Part shown: positions 842-20,302 of the stretch, one piece after another | Layout of the letters: every line of letters starts with the position of its first letter | How positions within the stretch are numbered: position 1 is the first letter of the stretch | NCBI RefSeq assembly: GCF_017833255.1 | Contig: NZ_JAFIBU010000001.1 | Span: 3,508,001-3,572,000 of the forward strand | Reading direction: 5' to 3' | DNA: 64,000 nucleotides | DNA from: Paenibacillus sp. PvR098 | GTDB taxonomy: Bacteria; Bacillota; Bacilli; Paenibacillales; NBRC-103111 | Notes under the pieces: generated by a model | Database searches by the model: none | Seen by the model: the letters and a program-made list of their open reading frames with translations, nothing else | Told to the model about the DNA's origin: nothing | Position numbers and translations under genes: made by a program

Positions 842-939
842 CACCTCCCCAAACAACCTCAGCATCACGCGGCGGCGGATTGTGGATTTGCCAAGCCACG
901 GTTCGCTTTCTGGAACTCTTGTCCATACAAAACCACAAT
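842..939 (+). repeat. att-like repeat type A, copy 1, with decayed core and inverted arm
   Basis: Bases 842-905 match copies at 2101 and 20231, including CACCTCCCCAAACA, ATCACGCGGCG and the arm ATTGTGGATTTGCCA followed by CCACGGTTCG. The core has decayed: after an interruption comes CTTGTCCATACAAAA (918-932), which resembles CGTCTCCATAAA. It overlaps CAAAACCACAAT (928-939), the arm motif in inverted orientation with one mismatch. An arm, a core and an inverted arm together are what a tyrosine-recombinase attachment site looks like. The att reading is inference. Confidence 0.6.
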
Positions 940-987
940 GGTTAATATGGAAAGGGGTTCTATACGTCCCTATATTATGTTTTAAAG

Positions 988-1033
988 AAATACCATCAGT
1001 TGCATCTAGGTGACGCTCTTGACGGTATTTTTT
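988..1033 (+). terminator. Terminator after att-like copy 1
   Basis: AAATACCATCA pairs with TGACGGTATTT across a 21-base loop, followed by a short T run. A hairpin follows nearly every att-like copy in this region. Confidence 0.5.
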
Positions 1034-1089
1034 GACATAGGACAATTTCTGCTAATCATAGCCTTTTATAAAAGCAATTTAAAAGGACG

Positions 1090-2082
1090 GTGGCGAAATT
1101 GTTTCTACCTATTAATAATATACTTATTGATATAAGAAAGCGGATTAATTTGGACACGATTTCACTTGAGAATGATATCAGACACCGGGGATTAATAATG
1201 CCCATTGATGTAGAAGGTCCAGATGAAAACAACAATTATTACTTAATAAACGGGGATCGTCGCCTTGAGGCTTGGAAAAATGTTAGGGTTAATGAGCCGA
1301 TTGAAGTTAATGTAGTGAGAGGATTTACTTCGAGGTTAGAACGAAATAAAGAGCGGCTTCAAATGCATCTGGATATAAAACCTATGCCGGGTGTCGATTT
1401 TCAAATTCTGATTGAGGACATTTTGAGAGAGAGTGGACTGTCTGATGCGGAACTTGCAAAAGAATTAAAACGAGATAAGAGGAAAATTCGGAAGTATAAA
1501 CCTGGGAGTGAGGTTCCAGAGAATGTAAGGGAGGAAGTTGCGAAAGTTCGAGGTAGTCAAGATATGCTTGAGGTGATTTATGCACTTAATATTGATATAA
1601 ATTTTAAGCAAAGGCTGTATAAGAGTCTGCTTTCAAGAAAACTTACTGGCGATCATGCCAAGGCTGTGAAGAGGCTTATTAATAATGATGTTTATGGTCG
1701 TCTGAACGAGCTTCAAAGAGTACGTGCCATAGAGGATGCCTTGCAACAAGCTACATTTACTAAATTAGATGCTGAGTTAGTGGTACTTAATGAATTAATG
1801 CGAACCAAGCCATCTGAACACCAAGACAAGTTTAATACATGGTTGTCGAATATATTAAATTCGATGGGAAAGGTTGCTGATTATTTACATCCTGATTTGG
1901 AATTTTTGGTAAGCCAACTTCAAAAGAAGCAATTAGCGAAAGCAGTAGGTGAAATAAACAAGGCTGTACGTTGGCTTTGGAAGGATAACAGGCAAACTGA
2001 ACAAACAACCTTGGAATCGGAATTGATAATTCAGCGAGAAAGTACGGATACTGGTTACCGTTACATATTTCGTTATCGATAA
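1090..2082 (+). CDS. ParB/Sulfiredoxin-domain protein with HTH
   Basis: This 330-residue protein starts at GTG, preceded by AAAGGACGG. Residues about 5-75 form a ParB N-terminal-type domain ending in NGDRRLEAWK, the counterpart of the ParB box II GERR motif. A helix-turn-helix follows at about 115-140 (LSDAELAKELKRDKRKIRKYK). The C-terminal half is helical and unrecognised. It is the only gene between att-like copies 1 and 2, and no ParA-type ATPase adjoins it. That argues against a normal partition pair and for an orphan island regulator or an accessory of a lost element. The family call is firm; the role is unknown. Confidence 0.75.
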   Translation: MAKLFLPINNILIDIRKRINLDTISLENDIRHRGLIMPIDVEGPDENNNYYLINGDRRLEAWKNVRVNEPIEVNVVRGFTSRLERNKERLQMHLDIKPMPGVDFQILIEDILRESGLSDAELAKELKRDKRKIRKYKPGSEVPENVREEVAKVRGSQDMLEVIYALNIDINFKQRLYKSLLSRKLTGDHAKAVKRLINNDVYGRLNELQRVRAIEDALQQATFTKLDAELVVLNELMRTKPSEHQDKFNTWLSNILNSMGKVADYLHPDLEFLVSQLQKKQLAKAVGEINKAVRWLWKDNRQTEQTTLESELIIQRESTDTGYRYIFRYR

Positions 2083-2100
2083 TCTTACGCGACAACTTGA

Positions 2101-2164
2101 AACATCCTCAGCATCACGCGTCGGCGAATTGTGGATTTGCCATGCCACGGCTCGTCTCCATAAA
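2101..2164 (+). repeat. att-like repeat type A, copy 2
   Basis: It has ATCACGCG, then the arm ATTGTGGATTTGCCA, a GTGG/CCAC stem, and the intact core CGTCTCCATAAA at 2153-2164. It lies 18 bases after the ParB-like gene. The same core ends the tmRNA-like copies further along. Confidence 0.7.
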
Positions 2165-2168
2165 AAGC

Positions 2169-2198
2169 GAGAGCATCAACCAATCGGTTGATGCTCTT
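2169..2198 (+). terminator. Terminator after att-like copy 2
   Basis: GAGCATCAACC and GGTTGATGCTC form a perfect stem with a short loop, followed by a weak T-rich tail. Confidence 0.65.
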
Positions 2199-2199
2199 G

Positions 2200-2600
2200 T
2201 GCGTTTACGGAGCGGAGTGAGCACGGCGGGCAATTTGGATCGAACAGATCCATACTCCCCTCGTCCCATACGCCAAATTGATAATGGGGATAGCGGCCGA
2301 TGAACTTCTTGGGTCTCAGGAATATCACGATTTGCCATAAGGGCCCAACCCGAGTTGTCGCAGAGTTTACAATGTGAAGGCAGCTTTAGGGCTGCACTTT
2401 TCCTGTATCAATCTTCTTTAAAAGATGATCCTGACTCATATTACAACTATGAGTCAGGATCATCTTTTTTGGGGAAAATACAAAGAACAGCTGTACATCC
2501 GTTTAACATCCGCTTACCACGGACCGTTCATTTTCATCGAAGCCTGCACATTTGTGAGTGAATTTCAGTATAACTTTGAATATGTTGCTCATGCTAGCGC
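2200..2600. other. Gene-free spacer before the fructose operon
   Basis: No convincing coding frame lies here. The short open frames have no ribosome binding site or family resemblance. The stretch holds one strong hairpin (2420-2470) and otherwise nothing recognised. Confidence 0.6.
2420..2470 (+). terminator. Strong hairpin, probable bidirectional terminator
   Basis: AAAGATGATCCTGACTCAT pairs with its exact complement across a short loop, with a T run after it and an A run before it. It isolates the fructose operon from upstream transcription. Confidence 0.8.
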
Positions 2601-2665
2601 TTTACAAATAAAATATGAGCATATATAATCATAAATAAGATCATATAGTCATAAATGATCATGAA
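2601..2665 (+). promoter_or_regulatory. Promoter and probable FruR operator of the fructose operon
   Basis: TTTACA (2601-2606), a 17-base spacer and TATAAT (2624-2629) form a good sigma-A promoter. Downstream, bases 2628-2665 repeat AATCATAAAT, GATCATA, AGTCATAAAT and GATCAT. This is repeated half-site architecture of the kind bound by DeoR-family repressors such as FruR. A weak cre-like sequence (CTAGCGCTTTACA) overlaps the -35. The promoter is seen directly; the operator assignment is inference. Confidence 0.6.
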
Positions 2666-2715
2666 ATAGCTTGATAATGGCCAAAAGTGGGCAGGGATTT
2701 TGAAGGGGATGGGCC

Positions 2716-3492
2716 GTGTTGTTTGAAGAGGAACGTAAACAAAAGATTGCTGAATATGTGATCAGTCGAAGCCGGGCATCGGTACAGGAACTTGCAGCTT
2801 GCTTTCAAGTATCGGAATCGACGGTCCGCCGGGATTTACGTGATCTTGAGGAAAACAAACCGCTGCGAAGAACACATGGTGGTGTGGTTGCCATTCAGCA
2901 TCAGGAGCCTTCTGAGCCTTCTTTCGAAGAGAAAGAGGATCGGTTACGTCCTCAGAAGGAAGCTGTCGCCAAAAAGGCTGTTTCCTTCATTGATGAGGGG
3001 GATACTATTTTTTTGGATTCGGGTACTACAACGTATTACCTAGCGAAGCAGTTAAAATCATTTAGGCAGCTCACAGTGGTTACGAATTCCGTCATGGTTG
3101 CGCACGAACTGAAGAGTGTAGATCATATCGATGTATTGTTAACCGGTGGAGCTTTAAGGCGGGAAACCCAGGCGATGGTGGGTCCGATTGCGAACCAATC
3201 CATACGCTCGATCCGCGTCGATAAATTATTTCTGGCCATCAATGGAATCGATCCGGAGGCCGGTTTGACCACACCAAACTTATTGGAGGCGGAAGCCAAA
3301 CGGTGGATGATCCGTTCAGCGAAACAGGTTATTCTGGTCACGGATCACAGCAAGTACGGGAGAGTGACCTTTGCCAAGGTAGCGGATCTTTCGGAAATCC
3401 ATCATTGTATTATCGATGATGACGCTTTAACGGAGCAGGCTGCGAAGGAAATGGAGCTAGAAGGCATCAAAGTCACATTGGCTAGGGGGTAA
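2716..3492 (+). CDS. fruR: DeoR-family transcriptional repressor of fructose utilisation
   Basis: This 258-residue protein starts at GTG with AAGGGGAT upstream. The N-terminal winged helix-turn-helix (residues about 5-60) contains VQELAACFQVSESTVRRDLRDLEE, the DeoR signature. The effector domain follows, with GDTIFLDSGTTTYYLAKQL and LFLAINGID typical of the phosphosugar-binding DeoR C-terminal domain. It is the first gene of the operon, 4 bases before fruK, which fits the usual fruR-fruK-fruA order. It probably senses fructose 1-phosphate and acts on the repeated half sites just upstream. Confidence 0.9.
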   Translation: MLFEEERKQKIAEYVISRSRASVQELAACFQVSESTVRRDLRDLEENKPLRRTHGGVVAIQHQEPSEPSFEEKEDRLRPQKEAVAKKAVSFIDEGDTIFLDSGTTTYYLAKQLKSFRQLTVVTNSVMVAHELKSVDHIDVLLTGGALRRETQAMVGPIANQSIRSIRVDKLFLAINGIDPEAGLTTPNLLEAEAKRWMIRSAKQVILVTDHSKYGRVTFAKVADLSEIHHCIIDDDALTEQAAKEMELEGIKVTLARG

Positions 3493-3496
3493 TAGA

Positions 3497-4441
3497 ATGA
3501 TAGGCTCAGTCCTTACGGTAACCATGAATCCGGCAGTAGATAAAACGGTTACAGTCGATAAATTTTCATTCGGTCAGTTAAACCGAATTACTTCGGTGCG
3601 ATTAGATGCAGGAGGTAAGGGAATTAATGTCGCTAAAGTATTAAAGCACTTTTCAGTCGATGTCAGCGCCTGGGGGTTGCAGTGCGGACCTGAGGGGCAA
3701 ATGTTAATGACGAAGCTTCGTGAGTACGGCATTCCTTCCCATTTCCTTGAGGCGGAAGGGCGAACTCGCGTAAACCTGAAGGTTGTAGATGAATTCACGA
3801 AGCAAACGACGGAATTGAATGAACCGGGATTCTCACCAAGTCCGAAATTACTGGATGAGTTCGTTCAACGGTTTAAGGCAGGATTGGAAGGGGTGTCCCT
3901 TGTTGTTCTAGGAGGAAGCCTGCCCCCAGGTACCCCGGGTGATTTTTACAAGCAGTTGATTCAGACCGCGAACGGCCAAGGAGTACGTACCATCCTGGAT
4001 GCGGACGGTGAGGCGCTGGCGAAGGGAATTGAAGCGGCTCCGTATGCGATCAAGCCGAACATACATGAGCTCGAGACGCTCATTGGCGCACCTTTGACTT
4101 CGGATGAAGCTATTGCTATTGCAGGAAGAAAGCTGGTTCGGAGTGGCATTGCCAATGTCATTGTATCCATGGGTGGAAGCGGTTCGATTATAGTGAACAG
4201 CGAGCAGGCGTTTCGCGTCAAACCGTTTCCGATTGAACCTAAGAGCACCGTAGGGGCGGGAGATTCCATGGTGGCCGCGATGGTATATTGTTACTTGCAT
4301 AACAAGTCTTTAGAAGAAACGGCTAGGTGGACGTCCGCGGCGGGAACCGTGACGGCTTCAAAACAAGGTACTGAGGTATGCACGTTAAACGAAGTGCAGG
4401 AGAAGCTTGAACTTGTCGATATTTGCCCACTAACAGTTTGA
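3497..4441 (+). CDS. fruK: 1-phosphofructokinase
   Basis: This 314-residue PfkB-family kinase phosphorylates fructose 1-phosphate, the PTS product, to fructose 1,6-bisphosphate in the cytoplasm. Visible signatures are MNPAVDKTV at the N-terminus, GGKGINVAKVLK (substrate binding, about residue 37), GGSLPPGTP (about 138), and VGAGDSMVAAMV near residue 252 with the catalytic Asp. Length is normal for the family. It follows fruR by 4 bases and precedes the membrane component by 31 bases. Confidence 0.95.
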   Translation: MIGSVLTVTMNPAVDKTVTVDKFSFGQLNRITSVRLDAGGKGINVAKVLKHFSVDVSAWGLQCGPEGQMLMTKLREYGIPSHFLEAEGRTRVNLKVVDEFTKQTTELNEPGFSPSPKLLDEFVQRFKAGLEGVSLVVLGGSLPPGTPGDFYKQLIQTANGQGVRTILDADGEALAKGIEAAPYAIKPNIHELETLIGAPLTSDEAIAIAGRKLVRSGIANVIVSMGGSGSIIVNSEQAFRVKPFPIEPKSTVGAGDSMVAAMVYCYLHNKSLEETARWTSAAGTVTASKQGTEVCTLNEVQEKLELVDICPLTV

Positions 4442-4472
4442 GAAAGTCTTACATCAAGGGAGGGGTTCAATT

Positions 4473-5849
4473 ATGAAAAAGATTTATGCGGTGACGGCTT
4501 GTCCGACAGGGGTAGCTCATACTTACATGGCTGCGGAATCTCTTCTTAAAGCAGCGAAAGAGAAGAATATCGACCTAAAGGTCGAAACCCGTGGTGCCGT
4601 TGGAGTGGAAAATGAGATCACGCCTGAGGAGATTGCAGGGGCGCATGCCATCATTGTAGCCGCGGAAATCGATGTACAGGAATCCCGGTTCATAGGAAAA
4701 CCGGTGGTAAGGGTTCCTGTAGCTCAAGCGATTAAAGATCCAAATGGGTTACTTGAAGAGGCATTGAATAAGGAGGCGGCAGCTCCCGCAGACTTGATTC
4801 AAGAAGTGGAAAAATCAAAGGCTGAAAGAGGCGCATCAAGAAAGGGCGCCTACAAGCATCTGATGACCGGTGTTTCGACAATGCTTCCTCTAGTCGTCGC
4901 GGGCGGGTTGCTGATTGCCATTTCTTTTATTTTTGGTATTGAAGCTTTTAAAGAAGAGGGTACTCTGGCAGCTGCTTTAATGAGTATCGGCGGTGGTGCG
5001 GCCTTTGCTTTGATGGTTCCTGTCCTTGCCGGTTTCATTGCGTTCTCTATAGCGGAGAAGCCTGGTCTTGCTCCGGGCTTGATCGGAGGAATGCTGGCGT
5101 CGCAAACCGGTGCTGGTTTCTTGGGCGGTATTGTAGCGGGATTTCTGGCTGGTTACACGGCCAAATGGTTAAAAGAAAATATTAAGCTTCCGAGAAATTT
5201 GGAAGGACTAAAACCGATTCTTTTAATTCCGTTGATTGCCTCGGCGGTCACAGGCCTTGCCATGGTGTATGTTATTGGTGAACCTGTAAAATATATAATG
5301 GACAGTCTTACGATGTGGCTGCAAAATATCGGCTCTGCAAACGCGATTTTGCTTGGTGTGCTGCTTGGCGCGATGATGGCGTTCGATATGGGAGGACCAT
5401 TTAACAAAACAGCTTATACATTCGCGATCGGCCTTTTGTCCAGCGGTGTGTATGGTCCGATGGCTGTGGTCATGGCGGCGGGAATGACGCCTCCACTAGG
5501 ATTGTGGCTTGCTACGCTGTTAGCACCGAAGAAATTCACGAAAGAGGAGCGGGAAGCGGGGAAATCTTCCGGTGTGCTTGGTCTTGCTTTTATTACGGAA
5601 GGAGCCATTCCTTTCGCTGCAAGCGATCCTTTCCGTGTCATTCCATCGATTATGGTCGGTTCGGCGGTAACAGGCGCACTTTCGATGGTGTTTGGGGCTA
5701 CGCTTAGGGCTCCTCATGGCGGAGCATTCGTTTTAGCCATACCTAATGCTGTAGGACAAGTAGGGCTATACGCATTAGCTATTGTAATCGGAACACTGGT
5801 CACAGCGCTCATGCTATCGATACTGAAAAAACCAGTCTCACAATCATAA
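4473..5849 (+). CDS. fruA: PTS fructose-specific transporter, EIIBC component
   Basis: This 458-residue membrane protein imports and phosphorylates fructose. Residues 1-100 are the EIIB domain, with VTACPTGVAHTYMAAESL and the phosphorylated Cys at position 10. A charged linker follows, then the EIIC domain (about 130-455) with multiple hydrophobic segments, the GGPFNKTAY substrate loop and ITEGAIPFAASDP. The EIIA domain, fused in many FruA proteins, is absent and is encoded separately just downstream. AAGGGAGGGG precedes the ATG. Confidence 0.95.
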   Translation: MKKIYAVTACPTGVAHTYMAAESLLKAAKEKNIDLKVETRGAVGVENEITPEEIAGAHAIIVAAEIDVQESRFIGKPVVRVPVAQAIKDPNGLLEEALNKEAAAPADLIQEVEKSKAERGASRKGAYKHLMTGVSTMLPLVVAGGLLIAISFIFGIEAFKEEGTLAAALMSIGGGAAFALMVPVLAGFIAFSIAEKPGLAPGLIGGMLASQTGAGFLGGIVAGFLAGYTAKWLKENIKLPRNLEGLKPILLIPLIASAVTGLAMVYVIGEPVKYIMDSLTMWLQNIGSANAILLGVLLGAMMAFDMGGPFNKTAYTFAIGLLSSGVYGPMAVVMAAGMTPPLGLWLATLLAPKKFTKEEREAGKSSGVLGLAFITEGAIPFAASDPFRVIPSIMVGSAVTGALSMVFGATLRAPHGGAFVLAIPNAVGQVGLYALAIVIGTLVTALMLSILKKPVSQS

Positions 5850-5863
5850 GGAGGATTTTACAA

Positions 5864-6316
5864 ATGGACGTAAGCGCACTTTTACAAGAACAATCAATCA
5901 TTATCCCAATGGATGCTTCCGATAAAGCCGCATGCATGAGGGCATTGGTCGATCAATTGGATGCAGGTGGAGTTTTGTCTGACAAGGCTGCGTATCTTGA
6001 AGCCGTGATGAAGCGGGAAGAGACCGGATCTACGGGAATCGGCTTTGGGGTTGCGATCCCTCATGGTAAATCTTCCGGTGTCAAAAAGCCTAGCTTGGCT
6101 TTTGCGAAATTATCCAAGCCATTAGATTGGGAGTCGCTTGACGGAGCGCCAGTGTCAGCTGTATTCATGATTGCCGTACCTGAAGAAGCAGCAGCCAATG
6201 AGCACCTGAAAATTTTGATTGGTATTTCCCGCAAGCTCATCGATGAAGATTTCCGTAACCAACTGCTAGCTGTCGAAGAACCAAAGCAATTAATTAGTTT
6301 ACTGCAAACCATCTAA
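5864..6316 (+). CDS. PTS fructose-family EIIA component
   Basis: This 150-residue soluble phosphotransfer protein passes phosphate from HPr to the EIIB Cys of the preceding gene. The active-site His is at about residue 67 in GVAIPHGKS, after the family block REETGSTGIGFGVA. It starts 14 bases after fruA behind a strong AAGGAGG. Together with the EIIBC protein it completes the fructose permease. Confidence 0.93.
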   Translation: MDVSALLQEQSIIIPMDASDKAACMRALVDQLDAGGVLSDKAAYLEAVMKREETGSTGIGFGVAIPHGKSSGVKKPSLAFAKLSKPLDWESLDGAPVSAVFMIAVPEEAAANEHLKILIGISRKLIDEDFRNQLLAVEEPKQLISLLQTI

Positions 6317-6339
6317 CAATAGAGTTGGGAGAATAGAGT

Positions 6340-6612
6340 ATGTATACCAAAGAAACGGCGATTCGCAATGAGTCAGGTTTTCATGTCAGACCTGCACAAT
6401 TATTTACGGAACAAGCGATTAAGTTTGAATCTCAAATAACTATTCAAGTGAAAGAACCGCATGCGGAAACAGACGGCAAAAGCATTTTGGGATTAATGGC
6501 TTTAGGATTAGAAAAGGGAAGTATGATTTCCATTTCGGCGGAAGGTCCTGATGAGAAAGAAGCCGTAGAAGCATTAGTAGCATTGGTTGAGAGCGGATTT
6601 GGTGAAGCGTAA
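6340..6612 (+). CDS. ptsH: Phosphocarrier HPr
   Basis: This 90-residue protein has the phosphorylated His15 in NESGFHVRPAQL. It also has the regulatory Ser in GKSILGLMALG (Ser48 here, equivalent to Ser46 of Bacillus HPr). It can therefore in principle serve both EI-dependent transport and HprK/CcpA-dependent catabolite control, unlike Crh, which lacks the His. It lies inside the fructose operon, so it may be a fructose-induced HPr additional to a housekeeping copy elsewhere; the window cannot show which. Confidence 0.92.
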   Translation: MYTKETAIRNESGFHVRPAQLFTEQAIKFESQITIQVKEPHAETDGKSILGLMALGLEKGSMISISAEGPDEKEAVEALVALVESGFGEA

Positions 6613-6652
6613 AAAGGAAGTCAACAGGGAGTAAGAGAAGGGAGTGGAGTCT

Positions 6653-8377
6653 ATGACGACGGGTTTAAATATCCAAGGTTTAGGCGTTTCTGAGGGTATA
6701 CAGATGGGGAAGGCATTCGTCTACACCCCCGTTTCCCTGGATACAGTCGAAGACCGCAAAACCGATCATTCGGATCATGAAGCGGCTTTGCTTCGAACGG
6801 CTAAGGAGCAATGCCTGAAGGATTTGGATGCACTTATCGAACGTGCCCAGAAAGTTCTGGGGGAGGAGAAGGCGGTCATCCTCAAGGGACAAGTCAGTAT
6901 GCTGAATGACCCTTCCTTCTTTCCTCCTATGGAAAAGTTGATCATTCAAGAGCAATGGTCTGCTGAAACAGCTATCCGTATGATTGTAAAAAAGACGGCC
7001 GGTTTATTCGAAAGCATGGCGAATGAATATATGCGTGAGCGGGCGGCGGATGTTCGTGATGTGGGCGGGCGGTTGCTGATGCATGTAAGAGGACGTCAGC
7101 AAAGCTCCTTATCGGATATTCAGGAAGAAGTCATCATCGTGGCAGATGACTTAACTCCTTCAGATACCGTTCAATTGGATACTCGTTTTGTAAAAGGCTT
7201 CATTACCCGTGTCGGGGGAAAGACGTCGCATACAGCGATCTTGGCGAATTCACTTGGGATCGCGGCCATTCTTGGTGCGGGGAAAGCGATCGAAACGATT
7301 CAAGACGGTGATTATCTCGTCATTGACGGTTCAACGGGCAGTTGTGTCGTCAATCCCGATGAAGAGACGCTAGCGGCTATACGCGAAAAAATGCGGCATC
7401 AAGAGGAAAGCCGGAATGAGCTGCAGGCTTATGCGAATGCGGAGGCGGTCACCTCAGATGGCTTCCGTATTGAAGTGGCAGCGAATATCGGTACCCCGGA
7501 AGAGGCGCGCGACCTGATAGAAAAGGGCGCCGAAGGCGTCGGTCTTTACCGCACCGAATTTTTATTCATGAGCCGCAGCTCAATGCCGGATGAAGAGATA
7601 CAATATAATGCTTATAAATCTGTGGCCGAGGCCATGCAGGGACGTCCTGTCGTGATTCGGACGCTTGATATCGGTGGAGATAAAGAGCTGCCGTATCTGG
7701 AGCTTGAGCAAGAAATGAACCCGTTTCTTGGATATCGGGCGATTCGACTCTGCTTGGATCGTCAAGAATTGCTGGTCACCCAGCTTCGGGCCATTTTGCG
7801 GGCGAGTGTTCATGGCAATCTTAAAATCATGTTTCCGATGATCTCCGGCTTGGAAGAGTGGAGAAAGGCGAAGGCGATCTATGAGGATGTACGGGCGCAG
7901 CTGCAGCAAGAAGGTATTCCAACTGCAGATACGCTTGAGATCGGAATCATGATTGAAATTCCTTCCGCAGCACTTCAAGCGGATCGCTTTGCCAAAGAGG
8001 TTGATTTCTTTAGTATCGGAACGAATGACTTGGTGCAATATACGGTAGCCGTAGACCGGATGAATGAACGTGTATCGGATCTGTATGACTATTTCCATCC
8101 GGCGGTTATTCGCTTGATTAAACAAGTGATTGACGCCTCCAACCGTCAAAACATATGGACAGGTATGTGTGGAAGCATGGCGGGTGATCCCCTGGCAGCT
8201 CCGCTGCTAGTCGGACTAGGGCTGCATGAGTGGAGCATGGCTCCATCCTCCATGCAGAAGGTAAAACGCGTGGTGACCCAGTTGAATCGTGAGTCATGCA
8301 GCAAACTTGCCGAGCGGATCTTAGATATGGATACGCCGACGGAGGTACGGGCAGCATTAGAGTCATTCCAAGCCTAA
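6653..8377 (+). CDS. ptsI: PTS enzyme I (phosphoenolpyruvate-protein phosphotransferase)
   Basis: This protein of about 574 residues uses phosphoenolpyruvate to phosphorylate HPr. The N-terminal HPr-binding region is followed by the swivelling His domain with GGKTSHTAILANSLGI (active His about 193). The TIM-barrel PEP site has GVGLYRTEFLFM, KIMFPMISG and TNDLVQYT, and the C-terminal catalytic Cys is in GMCGSMAGDP (about 506). I prefer the ATG at 6653, 8 bases after GAAGGGAG, over the in-frame GTG at 6644 that overlaps it. It is the last gene of the operon and is followed at once by an att-like repeat. Confidence 0.95.
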   Translation: MTTGLNIQGLGVSEGIQMGKAFVYTPVSLDTVEDRKTDHSDHEAALLRTAKEQCLKDLDALIERAQKVLGEEKAVILKGQVSMLNDPSFFPPMEKLIIQEQWSAETAIRMIVKKTAGLFESMANEYMRERAADVRDVGGRLLMHVRGRQQSSLSDIQEEVIIVADDLTPSDTVQLDTRFVKGFITRVGGKTSHTAILANSLGIAAILGAGKAIETIQDGDYLVIDGSTGSCVVNPDEETLAAIREKMRHQEESRNELQAYANAEAVTSDGFRIEVAANIGTPEEARDLIEKGAEGVGLYRTEFLFMSRSSMPDEEIQYNAYKSVAEAMQGRPVVIRTLDIGGDKELPYLELEQEMNPFLGYRAIRLCLDRQELLVTQLRAILRASVHGNLKIMFPMISGLEEWRKAKAIYEDVRAQLQQEGIPTADTLEIGIMIEIPSAALQADRFAKEVDFFSIGTNDLVQYTVAVDRMNERVSDLYDYFHPAVIRLIKQVIDASNRQNIWTGMCGSMAGDPLAAPLLVGLGLHEWSMAPSSMQKVKRVVTQLNRESCSKLAERILDMDTPTEVRAALESFQA

Positions 8378-8419
8378 TACGAATTACCTATGTATTCCTC
8401 AACTAGAGGTCAGCTTAAA

Positions 8420-8463
8420 CCGGCGTATTGTGGATTTACTCAACCACGCTTCGTCTCCATAAA
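8420..8463 (+). repeat. att-like repeat type A, copy 3
   Basis: CGGCGTATTGTGGATTTACT, a GTGG/CCAC stem, then CTTCGTCTCCATAAA with the intact core at 8452-8463. Upstream similarity to the other type A copies is weaker. It ends the fructose module. Confidence 0.65.
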
Positions 8464-8471
8464 TTACTTTG

Positions 8472-8506
8472 AAGGTCATGACAGCAAGAAGTCATGGCCT
8501 TTTTTG
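8472..8506 (+). terminator. Terminator after att-like copy 3
   Basis: AAGGTCATGAC and GTCATGGCCTT form a stem (one G-T mismatch position) followed by TTTTTT. Confidence 0.75.
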
Positions 8507-8700: not shown

Positions 8701-9891
8701 ATGATTGGTGCGAGAGTAATAAAGACTTGTCTGGCTGTTGCCATATCCATTCTTATTGCTAAAAGCTTGGATTTGTATGCATATCATTTTGCTGGAATCA
8801 TTGCTGTTTTATCTGTGCAACCGTCACTATATCGCTCATTACGTAATGGTGTTCAACAAACAGCCAGCGCTGTAATAGGAGCTGTTCTCGGGGCTATAGC
8901 CTTATTTACCCTAGGGGAATCTTTTTTAGCCATGGGGTTCATTACATTCCTGTTGATGGCACTCCATGTCTACATTAAGTGGACGAATTCCCTTTTAGTA
9001 TCCGTCGTCATCGCCATTAATACCATGGGAACGATAGGGCTTAATTTTTGGGAAGCGGCATACAATCAAATCGTCTTAGTATTCATTGGAACAGGTGTCG
9101 GAGCCCTAATCAATTTAGTACACAAGCCTGTTCATCAAGAAAGAGCGGAAGTCATCCTGAATCAGGCGGAAGGAATGCTTCGGGCGCTTCTTCATTATAT
9201 TTTTCTTGACTTGGAAAAAAATCGAATGACGCCGTATTCATCCATGAAAAATCAATTCGATGAAATTAGAATGTATATAAAAAAAGGTAAGGAGATTTCA
9301 GGTCTTATTAATGAAGATCGAAAGTTTCGTAAAAGCAATTTTAAAAATACATCTAAAATCTTCAAATCATTTGAAACGATGCTGGAACGAATTCATGACA
9401 TGTCCAAAGTTCTTACGAAAGTAGAATTAGTAGAGGATGAACTCATATTTTCGAAAAAAACAATTCATATTCTTATTACAATGCAAGAAAAGATCATTCA
9501 AGGGAAAAAGTTGAATCTGAAATTACTTAAGCGTGTATTAGATAAAAAAAGAAACCAATTGTGGAAGAATTCGATCGATTCGGAGGGGTTTTACAATTTT
9601 TATGGATATATAAAAGAATATCTTAATGAGCTGGAACATTTCCTAGTCGAAAACTCAGGTCAGATAAAAAAACAATTATCCTATTCTTCGATTGATCGTC
9701 CGGGACTTTTAGCGCAAATCTCTAAAATATTGGTAAAGTATAACTTAAATATTACGGACGTTTCCATACGCGTTAACGGTGAATTTGCAACTACAACAAT
9801 TGAGGGCACTTGTAAATTCGACTTTGAGGGTGACCAGATGCTCCAAGAAATTCTAAAGATCGATCATGTACTTTCGGTCGAATTTAGATAA
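8701..9891 (+). CDS. Aromatic-acid-exporter/FUSC-like membrane protein with C-terminal ACT domain
   Basis: This 396-residue protein has an N-terminal half (residues 1-145) with about five hydrophobic segments and the block VLSVQPSLYRSLRNGVQQT, typical of the aromatic acid exporter/DUF939 family. Residues 150-320 form a charged helical cytoplasmic domain. Residues about 325-396 read as an ACT domain (SSIDRPGLLAQISKILVKY, then LNITDVSIRV), the amino-acid-sensing fold. A paralogue at 59501 lacks the ACT part. The fusion suggests efflux gated by an amino acid or aromatic ligand; that is inference. It is the only gene between att-like copies at 8420 and 9914. Confidence 0.8.
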   Translation: MIGARVIKTCLAVAISILIAKSLDLYAYHFAGIIAVLSVQPSLYRSLRNGVQQTASAVIGAVLGAIALFTLGESFLAMGFITFLLMALHVYIKWTNSLLVSVVIAINTMGTIGLNFWEAAYNQIVLVFIGTGVGALINLVHKPVHQERAEVILNQAEGMLRALLHYIFLDLEKNRMTPYSSMKNQFDEIRMYIKKGKEISGLINEDRKFRKSNFKNTSKIFKSFETMLERIHDMSKVLTKVELVEDELIFSKKTIHILITMQEKIIQGKKLNLKLLKRVLDKKRNQLWKNSIDSEGFYNFYGYIKEYLNELEHFLVENSGQIKKQLSYSSIDRPGLLAQISKILVKYNLNITDVSIRVNGEFATTTIEGTCKFDFEGDQMLQEILKIDHVLSVEFR

Positions 9892-9913
9892 TCCGATGCT
9901 AAGTTGTTGAGGT

Positions 9914-9989
9914 GCTCGGGTGACAGCAAAACGGTGACTACACCCGTTGAAGCCTGTGTGCCATTCTTTTATTTCCGAGTTTTCATAAA
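9914..9989 (+). repeat. tmRNA (ssrA) 3'-end fragment, copy 1, decayed
   Basis: GCTCGGGTGACAGCAAAACG, then GTGACTACACCCGTTGAAGC and CTGTGTG, match the copies at 10423 and 18887. The T-arm is lost, leaving only TTTCATAAA of the core at 9981-9989. TACACCCGTAGA-like sequence 40-50 bases before the T-arm is typical of Bacillus-type tmRNA 3' ends. It is a remnant, not a functional RNA. Confidence 0.6.
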
Positions 9990-10016: not shown

Positions 10017-10053
10017 GTCTGAGATATTGTCGATAGTTGTTCAAATTGGGGTT

Positions 10054-10082: not shown

Positions 10083-10137
10083 AAAAGTATTCAGCCAAGA
10101 AAAGTTATTGGCTAAGAATAAGAAAGGTTGCAGATCT

Positions 10138-10365
10138 ATGCGTGCATTCAAAGACTGGAATCTAAAAGTGAAGAAAACTTTTAATGCGACAAGTAACGAA
10201 GTTGTATTAACTGTTACCGAAGCAGGGAGTTTATTAGGTCTTTCTAAAGATCAAATGAAAACCTATGTAGATAAAAGCGGGCTAACCAAAGTTCCGATCA
10301 TGAGAAGTGTTCATAGGTACCTTTTATTGAAAAGTGAAATAGATGAGATAATAAAAAAATCATAG
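10138..10365 (+). CDS. Small excisionase-like HTH protein, copy 1
   Basis: This 75-residue protein contains VVLTVTEAGSLLGLSKDQMK, a MerR/excisionase-type helix-turn-helix, and the wing-like region VHRYLLLKSEIDEIIKK. I chose the ATG behind AGAAAGG; an in-frame TTG at 10108 is an alternative. A second copy at 18603 differs at only a few residues. Both copies sit directly upstream of a tmRNA 3'-end fragment, the position expected of a recombination directionality factor. It could also be a simple regulator. No integrase is nearby. Confidence 0.7.
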   Translation: MRAFKDWNLKVKKTFNATSNEVVLTVTEAGSLLGLSKDQMKTYVDKSGLTKVPIMRSVHRYLLLKSEIDEIIKKS

Positions 10366-10407: not shown

Positions 10408-10422
10408 TATAACGGGGCGCAG

Positions 10423-10508
10423 CTCGGGTGACATCAAAACGGTGACTACACCCGTAGAGGCTTGCGTGGCGTTATCTTCGGACAGGGGTTCGGATCCTCG
10501 CGTCTCCG
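10423..10508 (+). repeat. tmRNA (ssrA) 3'-end fragment, copy 2
   Basis: Reads like the last 85 bases of a tmRNA: CTCGGGTGACATCAAAACGG, GACTACACCCGTAGAGGC, then GGACAGGGGTTCGGATCCTC, which folds as a T-arm, and the acceptor strand CGCGTCTCC. The usual loop TTCGACT is TTCGGAT here and the final CCATAAA is CCGCAAA, so this copy has drifted. No 5' half of tmRNA is present within several kilobases. It marks the left edge of the trehalose module. Confidence 0.75.
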
Positions 10509-10554: not shown

Positions 10555-10721
10555 GCGTTTATGGAGCGGTAAGGATAGGTGAAGCCAATTTTCGTAGATG
10601 AATACCTATGCCACATAGCTGCCGATGAAATTTTTGATTTTATCATGAAAAGGTCGCTTCCGTCACACCGTCGCTCGTTCCGTTCTGGTCAGTTGTGCTA
10701 AGCGGAGTGTATGGAATGTTC

Positions 10722-12034
10722 CTAATGTAACGGAAGTGAGACTTTTACCCGTGTTCCGTGGTTCAAACGACTCTCTACATGAATGGTGCCTTCAAAATGA
10801 TCCACTAGCTTATTTACCATAAATAAACCGATGCCTTGGCCGGCCTTTTCATCATTCATTTTTCCATATTTGCGGAAAAGTTTCCCCAATTGCTCCTCTG
10901 TCATTCCAATTCCCCAATCTTCCACTATGATGTCTAGAAAACCGTGGTTTGTACTAACGGAAACGGAAACGGTATTCCTCTCGAAGCTATATTTGATAGC
11001 ATTACTAATGAGATTGGACACAATTAACTTAAAGCCTTTGACATTGCTTAGAATCATCTCTGAGCCAGTCAATCGAATATCTGACTCCAATTTGATGTTT
11101 TGTGTTCTGCCCTTTATTTCCATGATTTCTAATACCTCGCCAATAATTTGCTGGGCTGCACCAATTTTCGGCGCCAGAGGGATTCGGTAGACAACATTTG
11201 TTCAGTCATAATGATATGTGATATTTCGTTATCGATAAGGTCTACATAGTCGCCAATAGCCTTTAGCTTATTCCTATCGTCCGTGTGGTCAAGACGGCTG
11301 TGGACTAGAGATGCATAGGCTTTAATGACTGTCAGTGGGTTTCGAACCTCATGGGAAACAACATGGACAAAATCAAGCTTTTGTTTATATAAGTCGATTT
11401 CGGATTCAAACTGGGTCTGAGCAGATAAGGTAGGGAAGGCCGTTCCCGATTTGCTGGGTTTACATTTTCGATATAAGTTTGAAAGAATGAATTCTTCATC
11501 GGTCAATAAATATTCGTGAGACCTCATCATTTCCAACTGTATGGCTGCGGGAACGGTGTTGGCATCATATGCGCATACGGTCAAAAATCCCAAACCAGCT
11601 ACAGTAACGTCACATTCACATTCGTAAGTATGCAATTTGTCCAGGATGTTATCTTGCTCACGCCAATCGACATGTCCCCAGAGTCGGACTTCTTTATTTA
11701 CTTTGAGGTGACGCTCTACAACTTCACTTAAATGATGTAGAACTCTGTTAAAATGGAAATCTTCATATATCCGATAAAATTCGACATTATCTATATAATG
11801 AATAGCCTTTTGTTGGTGTTCTGTTAGCTTCATTTCTTCCAACTTAGCGAGAATTAGCTTAAACCGTTCGGAACTATCTATGAAAATAACGTGCTGATTC
11901 AGATCAATACCGGCTTTAATAAAAGACACAGCGTTTTCGACATAGGTTTGTCGTGCTTGATAGAAGTAAAGGACGTGGGAACCGCTGTTTACATTGATAT
12001 GCTGGGTCAGTGAGATGCTATGGGTAATGGCCAA
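10722..12034 (-). pseudogene. MEDS-domain sensor histidine kinase, frameshifted
   Basis: Read from 12034 leftwards, residues 1-175 form a MEDS sensory domain (HVLYFYQARQTYVENAVSFI). A HisKA box follows with the phospho-His in FVHVVSHEVRNPLTVIKAY. That frame ends at 11129, while HATPase sequence (NLISNAIKYSF, VEDWGIGM, GQGIGLFMV) continues in another frame to 10722. The frames join as LAPKIGAAQQIIGEVLEIMEIKG if one base is restored near 11176-11184, so this is a one-base deletion. It is either a recent pseudogene or a sequencing error. It is divergent from treA and has no adjacent response regulator. Confidence 0.8.
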
Positions 12035-12084
12035 GCTATATCCCTCCTTTCTCCGTCTTTTTTACTCTAGCCGCCCCTTCCTGA

Positions 12085-12164: not shown

Positions 12165-12231
12165 ATATATATCTACTTGTATTTGCTTCATCAAGGTGGA
12201 TATAGATCATAGTGGCTTTAAAAAGGATGAG

Positions 12232-13926: not shown

Positions 13927-13946
13927 TGGCCGATAGGGGCGTTACA

Positions 13947-14666: not shown

Positions 14667-14688
14667 ATGGCTGCGAGGGAATTCATCG

Positions 14689-16360: not shown

Positions 16361-16376
16361 GTCGCCCTTTTATCGG
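16347..16376 (+). terminator. Intercistronic hairpin before the binding-protein gene
   Basis: Sequence around GTAAAAGGGT and CCCTTTTATCGG can pair across the end of the permease gene. It has no T run. It may stabilise or attenuate the message so that the binding protein is made in different amount from the permeases. Confidence 0.35.
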
Positions 16377-16421
16377 TTATACATGCAGGCAAGGCTAAAA
16401 AAATTTTTGGGGGAATCCATC

Positions 16422-17675: not shown

Positions 17676-17735
17676 AGGTTAATATGGGAGAAGGGTTCCC
17701 CCATATTAATCTGATCTTATGGGGGAGACTTTTAA

Positions 17736-18422
17736 TTGGATTTTTATGATTTTCTGATCAAGTTTATGGCGGCGATGCTGCTCGGGTTATTGATCGGTAT
17801 TGACCGGCAGCTTAAGCATAAGCCTCTTGGGATCAAGACAAGCATGGTGATTTCTGTAGCCAGCTGTCTCGTAACGATTGTTTCGATTGAGTCCGTGGAA
17901 ATATACTCCATTCCGGGGCATACGGTTATGGATCCCATGCGACTTACTGCACAAATTGTTAGCGGGGTAGGCTTTATCGGAGCGGGAGTTATTTTGCGCC
18001 GTAACAATGATGTGATTTCAGGCTTGACGACGGCGGCGATGATCTGGGCTGCATCGGGTCTTGGTATTGCAGCGGGGGCCGGTTTCTATAAAGAAGCGGT
18101 TTGTGCGGTTATACTGATCATTGTGGCCATCAATTTCGTGCCGCTGCTTTTCAAGCTGCTCGGTCCGAATAAGCTGAGGGAACGGGATCTTTCTATTCAA
18201 ATCACGGTTAAAAACAATTGCGAGATGTCAGCGTTGATCGATGAAATCCAGCAAAATTCTATGACAGTAAAACGAACCAAGATAAAAGATATGACCGATG
18301 GCAAACAGCAAATGCAGTTAGTCGTATCCGCATCGTACAAGCTGCGGACAACGACGGTGTACTATACTTTAAAAAGGCTGAGGCACGTCATTGCTGTCGA
18401 GGTTGAGACGATTTCGTCCTAA
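17736..18422 (+). CDS. MgtC/SapB family membrane protein
   Basis: This 228-residue protein starts at TTG behind GGGGGAG. The N-terminal 130 residues carry four to five hydrophobic segments with LLGLLIGIDRQ, SMVISVASCLVTIVS and GVGFIGAGVILR, the MgtC core, followed by TTAAMIWAASGLGIAAGAG. A small cytoplasmic C-terminal domain follows. MgtC proteins adjust magnesium homeostasis or membrane energetics in low Mg. It has no evident link to trehalose use and appears to be a passenger in this module. Confidence 0.9.
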   Translation: MDFYDFLIKFMAAMLLGLLIGIDRQLKHKPLGIKTSMVISVASCLVTIVSIESVEIYSIPGHTVMDPMRLTAQIVSGVGFIGAGVILRRNNDVISGLTTAAMIWAASGLGIAAGAGFYKEAVCAVILIIVAINFVPLLFKLLGPNKLRERDLSIQITVKNNCEMSALIDEIQQNSMTVKRTKIKDMTDGKQQMQLVVSASYKLRTTTVYYTLKRLRHVIAVEVETISS

Positions 18423-18434
18423 TCATCCGTTGGG

Positions 18435-18463
18435 AAATACACCTTAAATGGTGTATTTTTTTT
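18435..18463 (+). terminator. Terminator after mgtC-like gene
   Basis: AAATACACC and GGTGTATTT with a short loop, then TTTTT. Confidence 0.75.
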
Positions 18464-18602
18464 CATTTACCTAAGAATCTCGCTATACTTTACAGTTATG
18501 TACTCGCACAGATCGGTTTAGGCAAAAACTTATATTTATGATATAATAGAAGTATTCAGTTAAGAAAAGTTATTGGTTAACAATAAGAAAGGTTGCAGAT
18601 CT

Positions 18603-18830
18603 ATGCATGTATTCGAAGACTGGAATCAAAAAGTGAAAAAAACTTTTAATGCTACGAGTAACGAAGTTGTATTAACTGTTACAGAAGCAGGGAGTTTGTT
18701 GGGTCTTTCTAAAGATCAAATGAAAACCTATGTAGATAAAAACAGGTTAACCAAAGTTCCGATCATGAGAAGTGTTCATAGGTACCTTTTATTGAAAAGT
18801 GAAGTAGATGAGATAGTAAAAAAATCATAA
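18603..18830 (+). CDS. Small excisionase-like HTH protein, copy 2
   Basis: This 75-residue near-duplicate of the protein at 10138 has the same VVLTVTEAGSLLGLSKDQMK helix-turn-helix. Differences are few (for example SGL to NRL, and SEI to SEV). Its extended -10 promoter (TGATATAAT near 18537-18545), ribosome binding site (AGAAAGG) and terminator are also copied. A tmRNA 3'-end fragment again follows 56 bases after the stop. The duplicated unit spans roughly 18.51-18.97 kb here and 10.04-10.51 kb in the first copy. Confidence 0.7.
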   Translation: MHVFEDWNQKVKKTFNATSNEVVLTVTEAGSLLGLSKDQMKTYVDKNRLTKVPIMRSVHRYLLLKSEVDEIVKKS

Positions 18831-18847
18831 CGGTTACACATATAGGG

Positions 18848-18872
18848 CTAACACCGATGAGGTGTTTTTTAT
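18848..18872 (+). terminator. Terminator of small HTH gene, copy 2
   Basis: AACACC and GGTGTT with a 5-base loop, followed by TTTTATT. It is a duplicate of the hairpin at 10385. Confidence 0.6.
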
Positions 18873-18886
18873 TGTTACCGGGCGCT

Positions 18887-18973
18887 GTTCGGGTGACAAC
18901 CAAACGGGAACTACACCCATAGAAGCCTGTGTCGCGTTATTTTTGGACAGGGGTTCGACTCCTCTGGTCTCCA
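18887..18973 (+). repeat. tmRNA (ssrA) 3'-end fragment, copy 3 (best preserved)
   Basis: This copy has the clearest tmRNA 3' end. TTCGGGTGACAACCAAACGG is followed by GAACTACACCCATAGAAGCC and a linker, then TTTTTGGACAGGGGTTCGAC, TCCTCT, and GGTCTCCA. The AGGGG-TTCGACT-CCTCT element is a canonical T-arm. The upstream part aligns by eye with the last 80 bases of B. subtilis tmRNA. Only the 3' domain is present, so this is an attachment-site scar or att copy, not ssrA itself. It is followed by ATTGTAAATCCACAA, an inverted copy of the type A arm. Confidence 0.8.
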
Positions 18974-18990
18974 TATTGTAAATCCACAAA

Positions 18991-19032
18991 CGAAAAGGAG
19001 CTAGGCCAATCAAATTGGCTTAGCTCCTTTCG
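18991..19032 (+). terminator. Terminator after tmRNA-like copy 3
   Basis: CGAAAAGGAGCTAGGCCAAT and ATTGGCTTAGCTCCTTTCG form a long stem with a 3-base loop. Confidence 0.75.
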
Positions 19033-19052
19033 TATTTATTCCAAAATTATTT

Positions 19053-19445
19053 TTATTGTAAGCCATTTTCGCTTCTATGCTGAAGAACTAAATTTAAAAG
19101 ATCCTTCAGAGCAACAGAAACAACATCATGCCTTCCTTTGGGATATTCCAACAATTCAAGATTATAAGTTGACTTAATTGCTTTTTTTATAGAGTCATTC
19201 CTGTTGTTATCTACCAAGGCATAATGTGGTCTGCTACATTTTGCTGAAATATTTGCATTTTCCAAGAGCAAATTAATATCTGGGTCAGAAAGGCCGCTCC
19301 CAATAAATAATAATGTATTTACAAGAAATTATGAATCTAATACCCGATAAAATGATGAATGCTTATCTCTAGCATCGAAATAATCTCCTCGTGTCAGAAT
19401 TGTTTGTTTAGTGTTACTTACACAACCGTTAAGCTTATAGCCATG
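19053..19445 (-). pseudogene. SIR2-like domain protein, C-terminal remnant with in-frame stop
   Basis: Read leftwards from 19445, the frame gives HGYKLNGCVSNTKQTILTR, then GDYFDARDKHSSFYRVLDS, a TAA stop (19329-19331), and then FLVNTLLFIGSGLSDPDINL with LLENANISAK before the final stop at 19053. The pattern of KLNG, DYFDA, LLFIGSGLSDPDINLLLE and HYALVD is that of SIR2-like domains found in NAD-depleting defence proteins. The N-terminal NAD-binding half is missing and one nonsense codon interrupts the rest. It is a dead defence-gene fragment between two att-like sites. Confidence 0.7.
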
Positions 19446-19780
19446 GAGCCTCTCCTTTTGGAAGATAAGTAATTATAAACATTGTAAACCAGTATATGGT
19501 ATATTAGTAGTGGCAATAGAGTATTTTCTGTATATATAACGCGGAGTCCGATTCTAAATCTAAGGTAAATATTGTATTTAACTGAAAGTCGTAAATCGAT
19601 GAATGACTCGTACGTGAGCAAAAGAAGGACTACTCGAAACCTGCTCAAAAAGCGGTTCTCTAAACCCTTGTCCCAATAAAACCACAGATTTGTTTTGATA
19701 CGGGGTCTTCCTGCTATATTTAATTCTGCAGGTATTCAAATCAGAACTACAAAAAGTGCTTTAGATATAATTACTGTACA
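19446..19780. other. Gene-free AT-rich stretch with a possible decayed att site
   Basis: No coding frame is convincing. Near 19655-19685, GGTTCTCTAAACCC is followed by CTTGTCCCAATAAAA and CCACAG. This resembles the decayed core and inverted arm seen at 918-939, and suggests a further, very degraded attachment site between the SIR2 remnant and the toxin-antitoxin remnant. Confidence 0.35.
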
Positions 19781-19804
19781 AATTATAACGTATTCGTTAT
19801 AATT
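19775..19804 (+). promoter_or_regulatory. Promoter and palindromic operator of the toxin-antitoxin relic
   Basis: AATTATAACG (19781-19790) and CGTTATAATT (19795-19804) are perfect inverted arms around TATT. The right arm contains a TATAAT -10 (19798-19803), with TGTACA 17 bases upstream as a fair -35. A palindrome over the -10 is the usual autoregulatory operator of toxin-antitoxin operons. Confidence 0.7.
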
Positions 19805-19849
19805 TTATGTTACTCTGACTAAGATAGAGAATGTAAGGGAGTCGTTCCA

Positions 19850-20152
19850 GTGTATAAATACGAATTCGTCAGTTTACCCGAAGTTGATGAATTCATTAAA
19901 GAAATCGAAGAGAGGAAAAACCGGGGCGACAAGGATGCAAAAATTATGTTCGATAAGATTATTTATTGCATGGAACGTGTTCGCTTACAAGGAACTCGTG
20001 CCGGTGCTATTGCTCGTTTCGAGGGTGATACGACCGTTCCGCGCATCGATACGATTATCCGTGTCGCGATGGCACTAGGCGTAGACCTAACCTTAGTCCC
20101 TTCCGAACATTCCGGACATCATCAAGCTGCAGCAACAGCCGTATATGCTTGA
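19850..20152 (+). pseudogene. In-frame fusion of HigB-like toxin start and XRE antitoxin end
   Basis: The 100-residue frame starts at GTG. Residues 1-53 (YEFVSLPEVDEFIKEIEE, GDKDAKIMFDKI, LQGTRAG) match the beginning of Gp49/HigB-like toxins. Residues 54-95 (AIARFEGDTTVPRIDTII, then RVAMALGVDLTLVPSE) match the end of XRE-type antitoxins, after the HTH. An internal deletion that removed the toxin end and antitoxin start would give exactly this. The product should be neither toxin nor complete antitoxin. The operator upstream is intact. Confidence 0.65.
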
Positions 20153-20230
20153 ACGTTTTATACTAAAGATAGGGATTTACTTGTTTTATTATGAATCAAA
20201 GTTAATGTATCAGCCGGAAGCTTTATCACA

Positions 20231-20302
20231 CCTCCCCAAACATCCTAAGAATCACGCGGCGTCGAATTGTGGATTTACCACACCACGGTTCGTCTCCATA
20301 AA
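20231..20302 (+). repeat. att-like repeat type A, copy 4 (right edge of the island)
   Basis: CACCTCCCCAAACATCCTAA and ATCACGCGGCGTCG match copy 1. The arm ATTGTGGATTTACCA and the intact core CGTCTCCATAAA (20291-20302) follow. Ordinary chromosomal genes begin after this point, so it may be the outer right end of the whole array. Confidence 0.7.

Follow-up and report, generated by a model that had tools for sequence, protein, structure and literature searches.

The window analysed here, 64,000 nucleotides of Paenibacillus sp. PvR098 (positions 3508001-3572000 of its one-contig, 4.70-Mb genome), lies downstream of ssrA, the gene of transfer-messenger RNA (tmRNA). The single full-length ssrA of the genome is found at 3480194-3480557, that is at window -27807..-27444 (negative numbers are positions upstream of the window), 27.4 kb upstream of the window. 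A first-pass annotation had read positions 842-20302 as one chain of att-like sites built on the tmRNA 3' end and separating metabolic cassettes, and had pointed to an intact ssrA and a tyrosine integrase as genes to look for in the flanks; the former is there, but the enzyme adjoining it is a serine recombinase, and the fetched islands of six genomes (G000, G017, G055, G063, G079 and G095 in our numbering) contain no match to PF00589, the tyrosine integrase family. Directly 3' of ssrA and on the opposite strand sits the gene of a 519-aa large serine recombinase (LSR), whose reading frame extends ~40 bases into ssrA. The presence of Resolvase, Recombinase and zinc-ribbon domains together, and of the recombinase gene at the element end next to the target gene, is as in islands of the staphylococcal cassette chromosome (SCC) type and in ssrA genomic islands. 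The LSR gene is followed by that of a 145-aa serine recombinase consisting of the catalytic domain alone (Pfam: Resolvase only), then by RadC and Prim-Pol genes and, farther on, by Mrr, NaeI, C5-methylase, Vsr, GmrSD and HEPN genes. Distal to this element is an array of small gene cassettes with a common composite joint, which is the subject of this report: the site at 842 is the last of five such joints, the other four being upstream of the window at -6760, -4424, -3397 and -2210, so that the chain does not start at 842 and the first-pass annotation had covered its tail only.

We denote the halves of the LSR attachment site as P and P', the ssrA-derived halves as B and B' and the cassette-specific right half as X, with a slash for the joint between two halves. 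The end of the array and the element ends in the window are as follows.

1..831, plus strand: 3' part of the gene of a superfamily 1 (SF1) helicase with a DUF2726/restriction endonuclease (REase)-type nuclease (964 aa, start ~2 kb upstream of the window; open reading frame (ORF) 19-831), body of the last-but-one cassette. The full helicase-nuclease gene is at L011:2937-5831 (AAA_11/AAA_12/DUF2726; MkoA/MkoC-like in PADLOC).
831..968, plus strand: cassette joint P/X (842 in the first-pass annotation), inferred crossover TC at 903-904; site hidden Markov model (HMM) E 8e-42, the site being also in the training set.
990..1028, plus strand: terminator-like hairpin near the left end of the cassette, seen in the sequence.
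1090..2082, plus strand: ParB-like protein of 330 aa, the last cassette's only gene (ParB_N match below cut-off, E 0.002).
2081..2164, plus strand: terminal half-site P/B' that closes the array on the right, with TC at 2152-2153 and GTCTCCATAAA as B' (core match, site HMM).
8420..8463, plus strand: terminal half-site P/B' of an older element, TC at 8451-8452 (core and arm matches, site HMM).
18874..18989, plus strand: ssrA 3' domain joined to TGTAAATCCACAA, a B/P' site and element left end (85% over 116 nt to the genome's own ssrA; Rfam tmRNA 15.7 bits).
20226..20302, plus strand: terminal half-site P/B', TC at 20290-20291, then a terminator; judged by its sites, the stack ends here (core and arm matches, site HMM).

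The att-like sites are real remnants of attachment sites on the ssrA 3' end. The core CGTCTCCATAAA is exact at 2153, 8452 and 20291, and with up to two mismatches it has 16 matches against 5.6 expected, a number that none of 100 shuffles reaches. At least seven repeats had been described as ending in or decaying from this core, which holds for the three exact sites; the right half at 842 is a different sequence, X. The distinct arm described at four sites is borne out: ATTGTGGATTTRCC matches perfectly at 879, 2128 and 20266 and with one mismatch at 8427. We find it hardly credible that ordinary repeats, terminators and chance matches, were mistaken for att sites. Short cores do arise by chance, as the expected number indicates, but a longer version of the arm occurs seven times in the 4.70-Mb genome, each time at the locus downstream of ssrA and on the same strand, and the longer joint pattern is found in 11 of 392 genomes from the order (two families, 5 of 49 genera), with no match in the reversed controls of either search.

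As judged from its sequence, the arm ATTGTGGATTTRCC is the likely P half of the LSR attachment site, with its partner AAATCCACAA just 3' of ssrA, and not a part of tmRNA; it is the inverted partner of TAAATCCACAA, which also lies just 3' of ssrA. In all three P/P' joints tested, P and P' each carry AAATCCACAA at position 14 outward from the central TC (one copy with one base changed), and in a fourth joint (G020) the motif is at 14 on the right side, with a one-base insertion. These joints were chosen because the motif is visible, so the evidence is its constant position and not its presence; the arrangement matches the predicted layout of a 48-bp LSR attP. The P' motif is found at +14 in all five ssrA junctions with an LSR at least 77% identical and in neither of the two whose LSR is 57% or 40% identical. 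G063, where the part read contains no intact LSR, has the motif as well. At 2152, 8451 and 20290, TC marks sites in which P is joined to the displaced ssrA tip GTCTCCATAAA, and these are right-hand element ends; at 18874-18989, as at the intact gene, ssrA is joined to P'. With inverted-repeat arms in attP and both B/P' and P/B' present, attL and attR fit one crossover, as in SCC-like elements and ssrA islands. In 8 of 8 cases P' opens like the native ssrA tip, with GTCTCCAT or ACCTCCAT, and agrees with the host on ACCTCC or GTCTCC; an LSR element would therefore leave the acceptor stem of tmRNA whole, which X does not.

Terminal B' halves differ by genus in the same way as ssrA. ACCTCC is present in five of the six ends of genus 17 (the sixth, in G080, has no B'), and GTCTCC in 9 of the 12 ends of genera 1 and 21 that have B', with one base changed in G007, G009 and G022 and ACCTCC in none. 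G024, which like G003 is of the same genus as the present genome, yielded no ssrA of its own and its end is counted here by genus; the counts do not include the array end of G095 (P/P'-like), two further G094 ends (one GTCTCC, one decayed) and the G042 end (GCCTCC; own ssrA not seen). The terminators after 2153 and 20291 look, by eye, like the ssrA terminators of relatives, and no intact tRNA or tmRNA gene was detected in the window by ARAGORN. Comparison of the right flank with the ssrA loci of relatives revealed no clear synteny, so only the last P/B' marks where the chromosome resumes.

The link between this recombinase and ssrA recurs in relatives: all seven full-length LSRs at least 40% identical in 104 genomes of the family adjoin ssrA, a count from which 9 of the 16 relatives found were left out as fragments or at most 32% identical. 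In one of these genomes, G009, the contig ends, so it is outside the counts of array status. At E<=1e-60 the LSR has relatives in four plasmid records, all less than 60% identical, and in 15 phage records, of which the best 10 are all less than 60% identical. A 343-aa protein without Pfam match (L009:17449-18480, minus strand) is 57-71% conserved in the LSR elements of G055, G067, G079 and G100.

The cassette joint P/X shares its left half with the LSR site. Its right half begins with a variable spacer of 8 bp, followed in order by GAACCCTTGTCC, AAANCCACAA and GGACAGGGGTTC. The spacer is 8 bp long in all 24 sites used to build the HMM, although these had been picked with a pattern allowing 8-10, and in 26 of 27 distinct joints, the remaining one (P. 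curdlanolyticus, L126) having 7. AAANCCACAA is at position 25 in 20 of the 24 sites, 11 bp farther out than the P' motif. The 12-mer GAACCCTTGTCC is the inverse of the 5' strand of the tmRNA T-arm with one mismatch, and GGACAGGGGTTC is that strand itself. The five modules of this genome are 0.9-3 kb long with a single gene each, encoding an OLD-like ATPase, unknown proteins of 220 and 202 aa, the SF1 helicase-nuclease and the ParB-like protein. A terminator-like hairpin (AGTACCGTCAGTTGCGTC..GACGCTTTTGACGGTACT) follows 3-62 nt past the joint in 19 of 52 X sites of relatives when counted by HMM (also at L010:16732-16766), or in 5 of 52 when counted with a stricter pattern, and perhaps insulates cassettes from read-through.

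Arrays of small, mostly one-gene cassettes with a common recombination site are known from integrons, and gene-cassette arrays are generally credited to these tyrosine-recombinase systems. Could P/X then be an attC-like site that folds and serves a tyrosine integrase, in a true relative of integrons? The small, mostly one-gene cassettes with mixed cargo, the direct-repeat joints and the imperfect palindrome with a variable centre would all fit. A folded site, a hairpin with the crossover at its base, is rejected, since the breakpoints are near the centre of the palindrome, and variation between P arm and X is uncompensated: the P-arm position Y is C in 14 of 24 sites while X keeps GAAC or AAAC. 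With no IntI-type enzyme linked to the arrays in the six genomes named above, we regard such kinship as very improbable. The arrays resemble integrons as directional runs of small cassettes with a common site, exchanged as units, and differ in having a serine recombinase, no attC geometry and genes in both orientations; they would work like integrons without being members of that class.

At E<=0.01, an HMM built from the 24 P/X sites, which match it by construction, found 68 full or partial sites spread over 13 islands. Eight islands were fetched along with their ssrA, and 49 of 49 sites in them have the orientation of that gene; all 16 minus-strand matches mirror a plus-strand site. Spans between full joints are 674-3048 bp, with a median of 1290 bp (n=33, measured between consecutive full sites, partial sites in between being skipped, as at 36926-38489 in G055). 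The order ssrA, LSR, 17-28 kb, array, P/B' is the same in all six islands with an LSR at least 57% identical (G000, G055, G059, G067, G079 and G100); in G059 another P/P' joint and an LSR relic follow beyond the array, before the last P/B'. A strict joint pattern is present in 10 of the 104 family genomes, namely in four of six with an intact LSR at least 57% identical compared to 6 of 98 others (Fisher p=6e-4, kinship uncorrected). This pattern was absent from viral contigs, so that carriage by phages is rejected, and seven of 19 contig stretches found are chance matches in other taxa, without the outer arms.

Whole cassettes are shared between arrays next to unrelated neighbours. A cassette body of P. 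rigui and P. abyssi is 92% identical while its neighbours do not align (20% and 22%), and one of G059 and G079 is 85% identical between neighbours at 19% and 37%. The ParB-like cassette of the window is 82-83% identical at the DNA level in G063 and G067, and these two have it and the preceding cassette in common at 96-97%. The first-pass annotation had anticipated variation bounded exactly at the core; between species, shared cassettes and ssrA-cassette junctions bear this out and favour an array. Such junctions, B/X, must exist if cassettes enter by a single crossover at TC. The first was seen in G095, and a pattern search gave five matches in 4 of the 104 genomes, G095 among them, with none in reversed controls. 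Four of the five have an X half by HMM; the fifth, in G061, has none and was scored as a miss. In G042 one solitary cassette sits between B/X and P/B', with no LSR in the 35 kb read.

How would these arrays be built? We propose, with a probability of about two in three, that mobile islands have stacked up over 47.7 kb at the 3' tip of ssrA, that the chain is the far portion of this stack, and that the stack was assembled from LSR elements and P/X cassettes by crossover at TC. The LSR would recombine the ssrA tip (attB, ...GACTCCCC-TC-GTCTCCATA) with the element site P/P', leaving B/P' at ssrA, where GTCTCCATA would be kept and the tmRNA acceptor stem restored, and P/B' at the far end. The same recombination would take up small circular cassettes with the site P/X, in which the P half is shared and the right half different, and single crossovers at TC would then produce B/X, P/X and P/B' joints and so head-to-tail arrays of mostly one- or two-gene cassettes. 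We infer that the LSR or a close relative, possibly together with the small second serine recombinase, acts on P/X in trans, and that the cassettes exist as circles. Since X does not restore the acceptor stem, arrays would be found distal to the LSR element and not directly at ssrA, selection on tmRNA probably placing them there.

Several points weigh against this proposal. It is drawn from genome sequences, with recombination and circles read back from the joints. Since P' at ssrA matches the host's own version of the tip in all cases, the crossover of LSR elements is not pinned down more closely than to the shared 11-bp core. Of the four good B/X junctions, one is on a full-length ssrA copy and one on an ssrA 3' domain, and two are on only ~20-26 nt of ssrA. 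In G038 (L222, G038:C128, 9695-10114) the left end of a cassette replaces the native 3' tip of a full-length ssrA copy and the acceptor stem looks broken, a possible counter-example to selection against X at ssrA unless there is a second ssrA. With one genome sampled per species, array variation is compared between species. An intact close LSR is lacking in six of the ten genomes with strict joints, several of them drafts. The half-sites that should move along with a cassette do not clearly exceed in similarity those that should stay behind, the two not being separated because all halves are conserved. Finally, with its 8-bp spacer and a motif shifted by 11 bp relative to P/P', P/X may not be a site for the same LSR.

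This last point raises the possibility that another recombinase moves the cassettes, either the 145-aa catalytic-domain-only enzyme beside the LSR or one encoded elsewhere. The small recombinase gene is kept at 65-75% in G055, G067 and G079, which along with the P/X geometry speaks for it. In G059 and G100, though, both of which have arrays, no copy was found beside the LSR (matches there fall within the LSR itself), and the protein has only the catalytic domain in Pfam; on balance we doubt this explanation a little more than the one that follows. The locus might be a dead accretion zone, where LSR islands landed at ssrA time and again and cassettes are now shuffled solely by homologous recombination between the ~140-bp joints, which are direct repeats. 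Their length would suffice for such exchange, and several LSR relics and decayed half-sites are present. The many joint-bearing genomes without an intact close LSR, and half-site identities that do not clearly travel with cassettes, also speak for it. We nevertheless think it unlikely: B/X and P/B' break at TC against different sequences, which is not a target for homologous recombination, the joints keep their spacer length, and the solitary cassette of G042 is flanked by B/X and P/B'.

Besides the LSR proposal for the P/X sites, the window has a second family of sites, so the picture of a single chain gives way to two site families and probably two insertion classes, of which the one based on copies of the ssrA 3' domain is the less certain. 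The three copies reported at 9914, 10423 and 18887 are genuine by alignment to the genome's own ssrA (84%, 91% and 85%). A check with the Rfam tmRNA model, which the first-pass annotation had put forward, failed for two of them: only the 18880 copy is matched, at 15.7 bits against a cut-off of 47 bits, and 9914 and 10423 are unmatched even at E<=1, probably because the model is insensitive to fragments. The 5' edge falls at tmRNA nt 262-277 in 10 of 25 partial matches that do not start at nt 1, and the remainder scatter from 53 to 334. Downstream of ssrA in G017 (L194), two modules of ~0.8-1.2 kb, with a Fic-like gene and with a REase-like and PIN-like pair (named by eye), each end in a ~95-bp copy of the ssrA 3' domain with, by eye, a terminator after it, possibly a second kind of ssrA cassette array. 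No recombinase was found behind the 3'-domain copies. The remaining features of the 842-20302 region are listed below.

2165..2230, plus strand: terminator hairpin of ssrA, displaced, with the native 3' flank of the gene (by-eye likeness to the region downstream of ssrA in relatives).
2251..2338, minus strand: decayed left end (B/P'-like by eye, TC ~2261-2262) and LSR 3'-end relic, start of an older element (2290-2338 is 86% identical over 49 nt to LSR-gene DNA 3' of ssrA).
2716..8377, plus strand: six ORFs, the fructose phosphotransferase system (PTS) module of the first-pass annotation, which gave the name; cargo of the older element.
8701..9891, plus strand: aromatic-acid-exporter-like membrane protein with an ACT domain (Pfam).
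9913..9970, plus strand: decayed ssrA 3'-domain copy (tmRNA nt 274-331), probable second insertion class (84% over 58 nt to own ssrA).
10108..10365, plus strand: HTH_17 (excisionase-like) gene, 85 aa (E 0.001, below cut-off).
10412..10507, plus strand: ssrA 3'-domain copy (tmRNA nt 265-360), then a terminator (91% over 96 nt to own ssrA).
10589..10640, minus strand: LSR gene 3'-end relic (85% over 52 nt to DNA 3' of ssrA).
18573..18830, plus strand: HTH_17 gene again, immediately 5' of an ssrA 3'-domain copy (240 of 258 bases and 76 of 85 aa identical to 10108..10365).
19653..19714, plus strand: decayed X half-site, left end of a cassette (site HMM E 3e-5, model 77-141).
19850..20152, plus strand: 100-aa ORF without Pfam match, cargo of a small cassette (ORF list, Pfam).

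The LSR 3'-end relics at 2290-2338 and 10589-10640, taken with the P/B' ends at 2152, 8451 and 20290, point to three LSR-type elements in succession, with the fructose-PTS module in the second. A cassette array does exist, as the first-pass annotation held, but mostly upstream of the window and with small, partly defence-like cassettes. The metabolic modules of the window (fructose PTS, trehalose ABC and exporter; names from that annotation, of which only the exporter was re-tested) seem to be parts of older elements that have P/B' ends as their limits, and not members of the array. A long inverted repeat at 2412-2478 (AAAAGATGATCCTGACTCAT...) is likely a bidirectional terminator; its Rfam match to mir-4524 is below cut-off and surely an artefact. 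Near an LSR relic, 11129-12034 (minus strand) encodes a protein with a MEDS sensory domain and HisKA.

Cargo was analysed by a Pfam scan of 47 cassette or element ORFs (and three other ORFs of the window) of 104 listed, and by PADLOC for 20 of the 47. At E<=0.01, 20 of the 47 have no Pfam match, and 9 of the 20 ORFs tested in PADLOC matched at E<=0.001, several of them weakly. Cassette genes occur in both orientations. Others among the 47 ORFs include Mrr, DpnII/MboI-type, NucS, TnsA-like/WYL, DUF4365 and DUF4145 proteins, DUF6791-ThiF with DUF6527, an OLD-type ATPase, TPR and GNAT proteins, a sulfatase and a 5'-nucleotidase. Our impression is that cassettes are enriched for defence, no background of ordinary genes having been compared.

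LSR islands at ssrA are already known; the cassette array with its composite site looks like a novel form of them. In Dehalococcoides (DsiB/DsiA; McMurdie et al. 2011, PMC3146451), as far as the available part of that paper describes, tandem LSR islands downstream of ssrA are bounded by repeats of the ssrA 3' end. Likenesses to our locus are the LSR gene adjoining or running into ssrA (DsiB being set beside our LSR by description), the small second serine recombinase next to it, and islands without an integration module. The same text gives 20-bp ssrA repeats, a T-loop crossover at nt 333/334 and reductive-dehalogenase cargo; here B/X and P/B' instead break at TC after GACTCCCC, on the acceptor side, and there is an array of 0.7-3 kb cassettes with the composite P/X site. 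SCC and the Enterococcus cassette chromosome (ccrAB at rlmH; PMC6222049, from the part available) are similar: their islands are driven by LSRs and occupy a conserved 3' end, the att sites span ~50 bp and contain inverted repeats, attR is present in additional copies, and the cargo varies. They differ from the present system, which has ssrA as target and ordered arrays of mostly one- or two-gene cassettes that lack a recombinase and have their own left half-site. LSR islands at ssrA of Clostridioides difficile and Clostridium perfringens and composite islands at rlmH of Paenibacillus pinistramenti (PMC10061031) share the use of ssrA by Firmicute LSR islands, tandem composites and replication-type genes; the accessible part of that source describes no cassette array of the kind present here, and that of PMC12884075 holds nothing further on arrays. 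Among the matches listed in the open-access literature we found no report of single-gene cassette arrays at ssrA, which is not proof of absence.

We suggest tentatively, at a little short of even odds, that this is a serine-recombinase counterpart of the integron, in which an LSR resident at ssrA captures, stacks and exchanges small, mostly one- or two-gene and often defence-type cassettes via P/X, the P' half of the LSR element shielding the essential tmRNA as cassettes pile up behind it. If true, a serine-recombinase system at a conserved RNA gene would represent an independent origin of cassette capture and would explain how single defence genes move among Paenibacillaceae, and the scanned proteins without Pfam match would be a ready list of candidate defence genes. 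Elsewhere in the window, a c-di-GMP-I riboswitch is found at 47814-47897 (Rfam, 78.8 bits).

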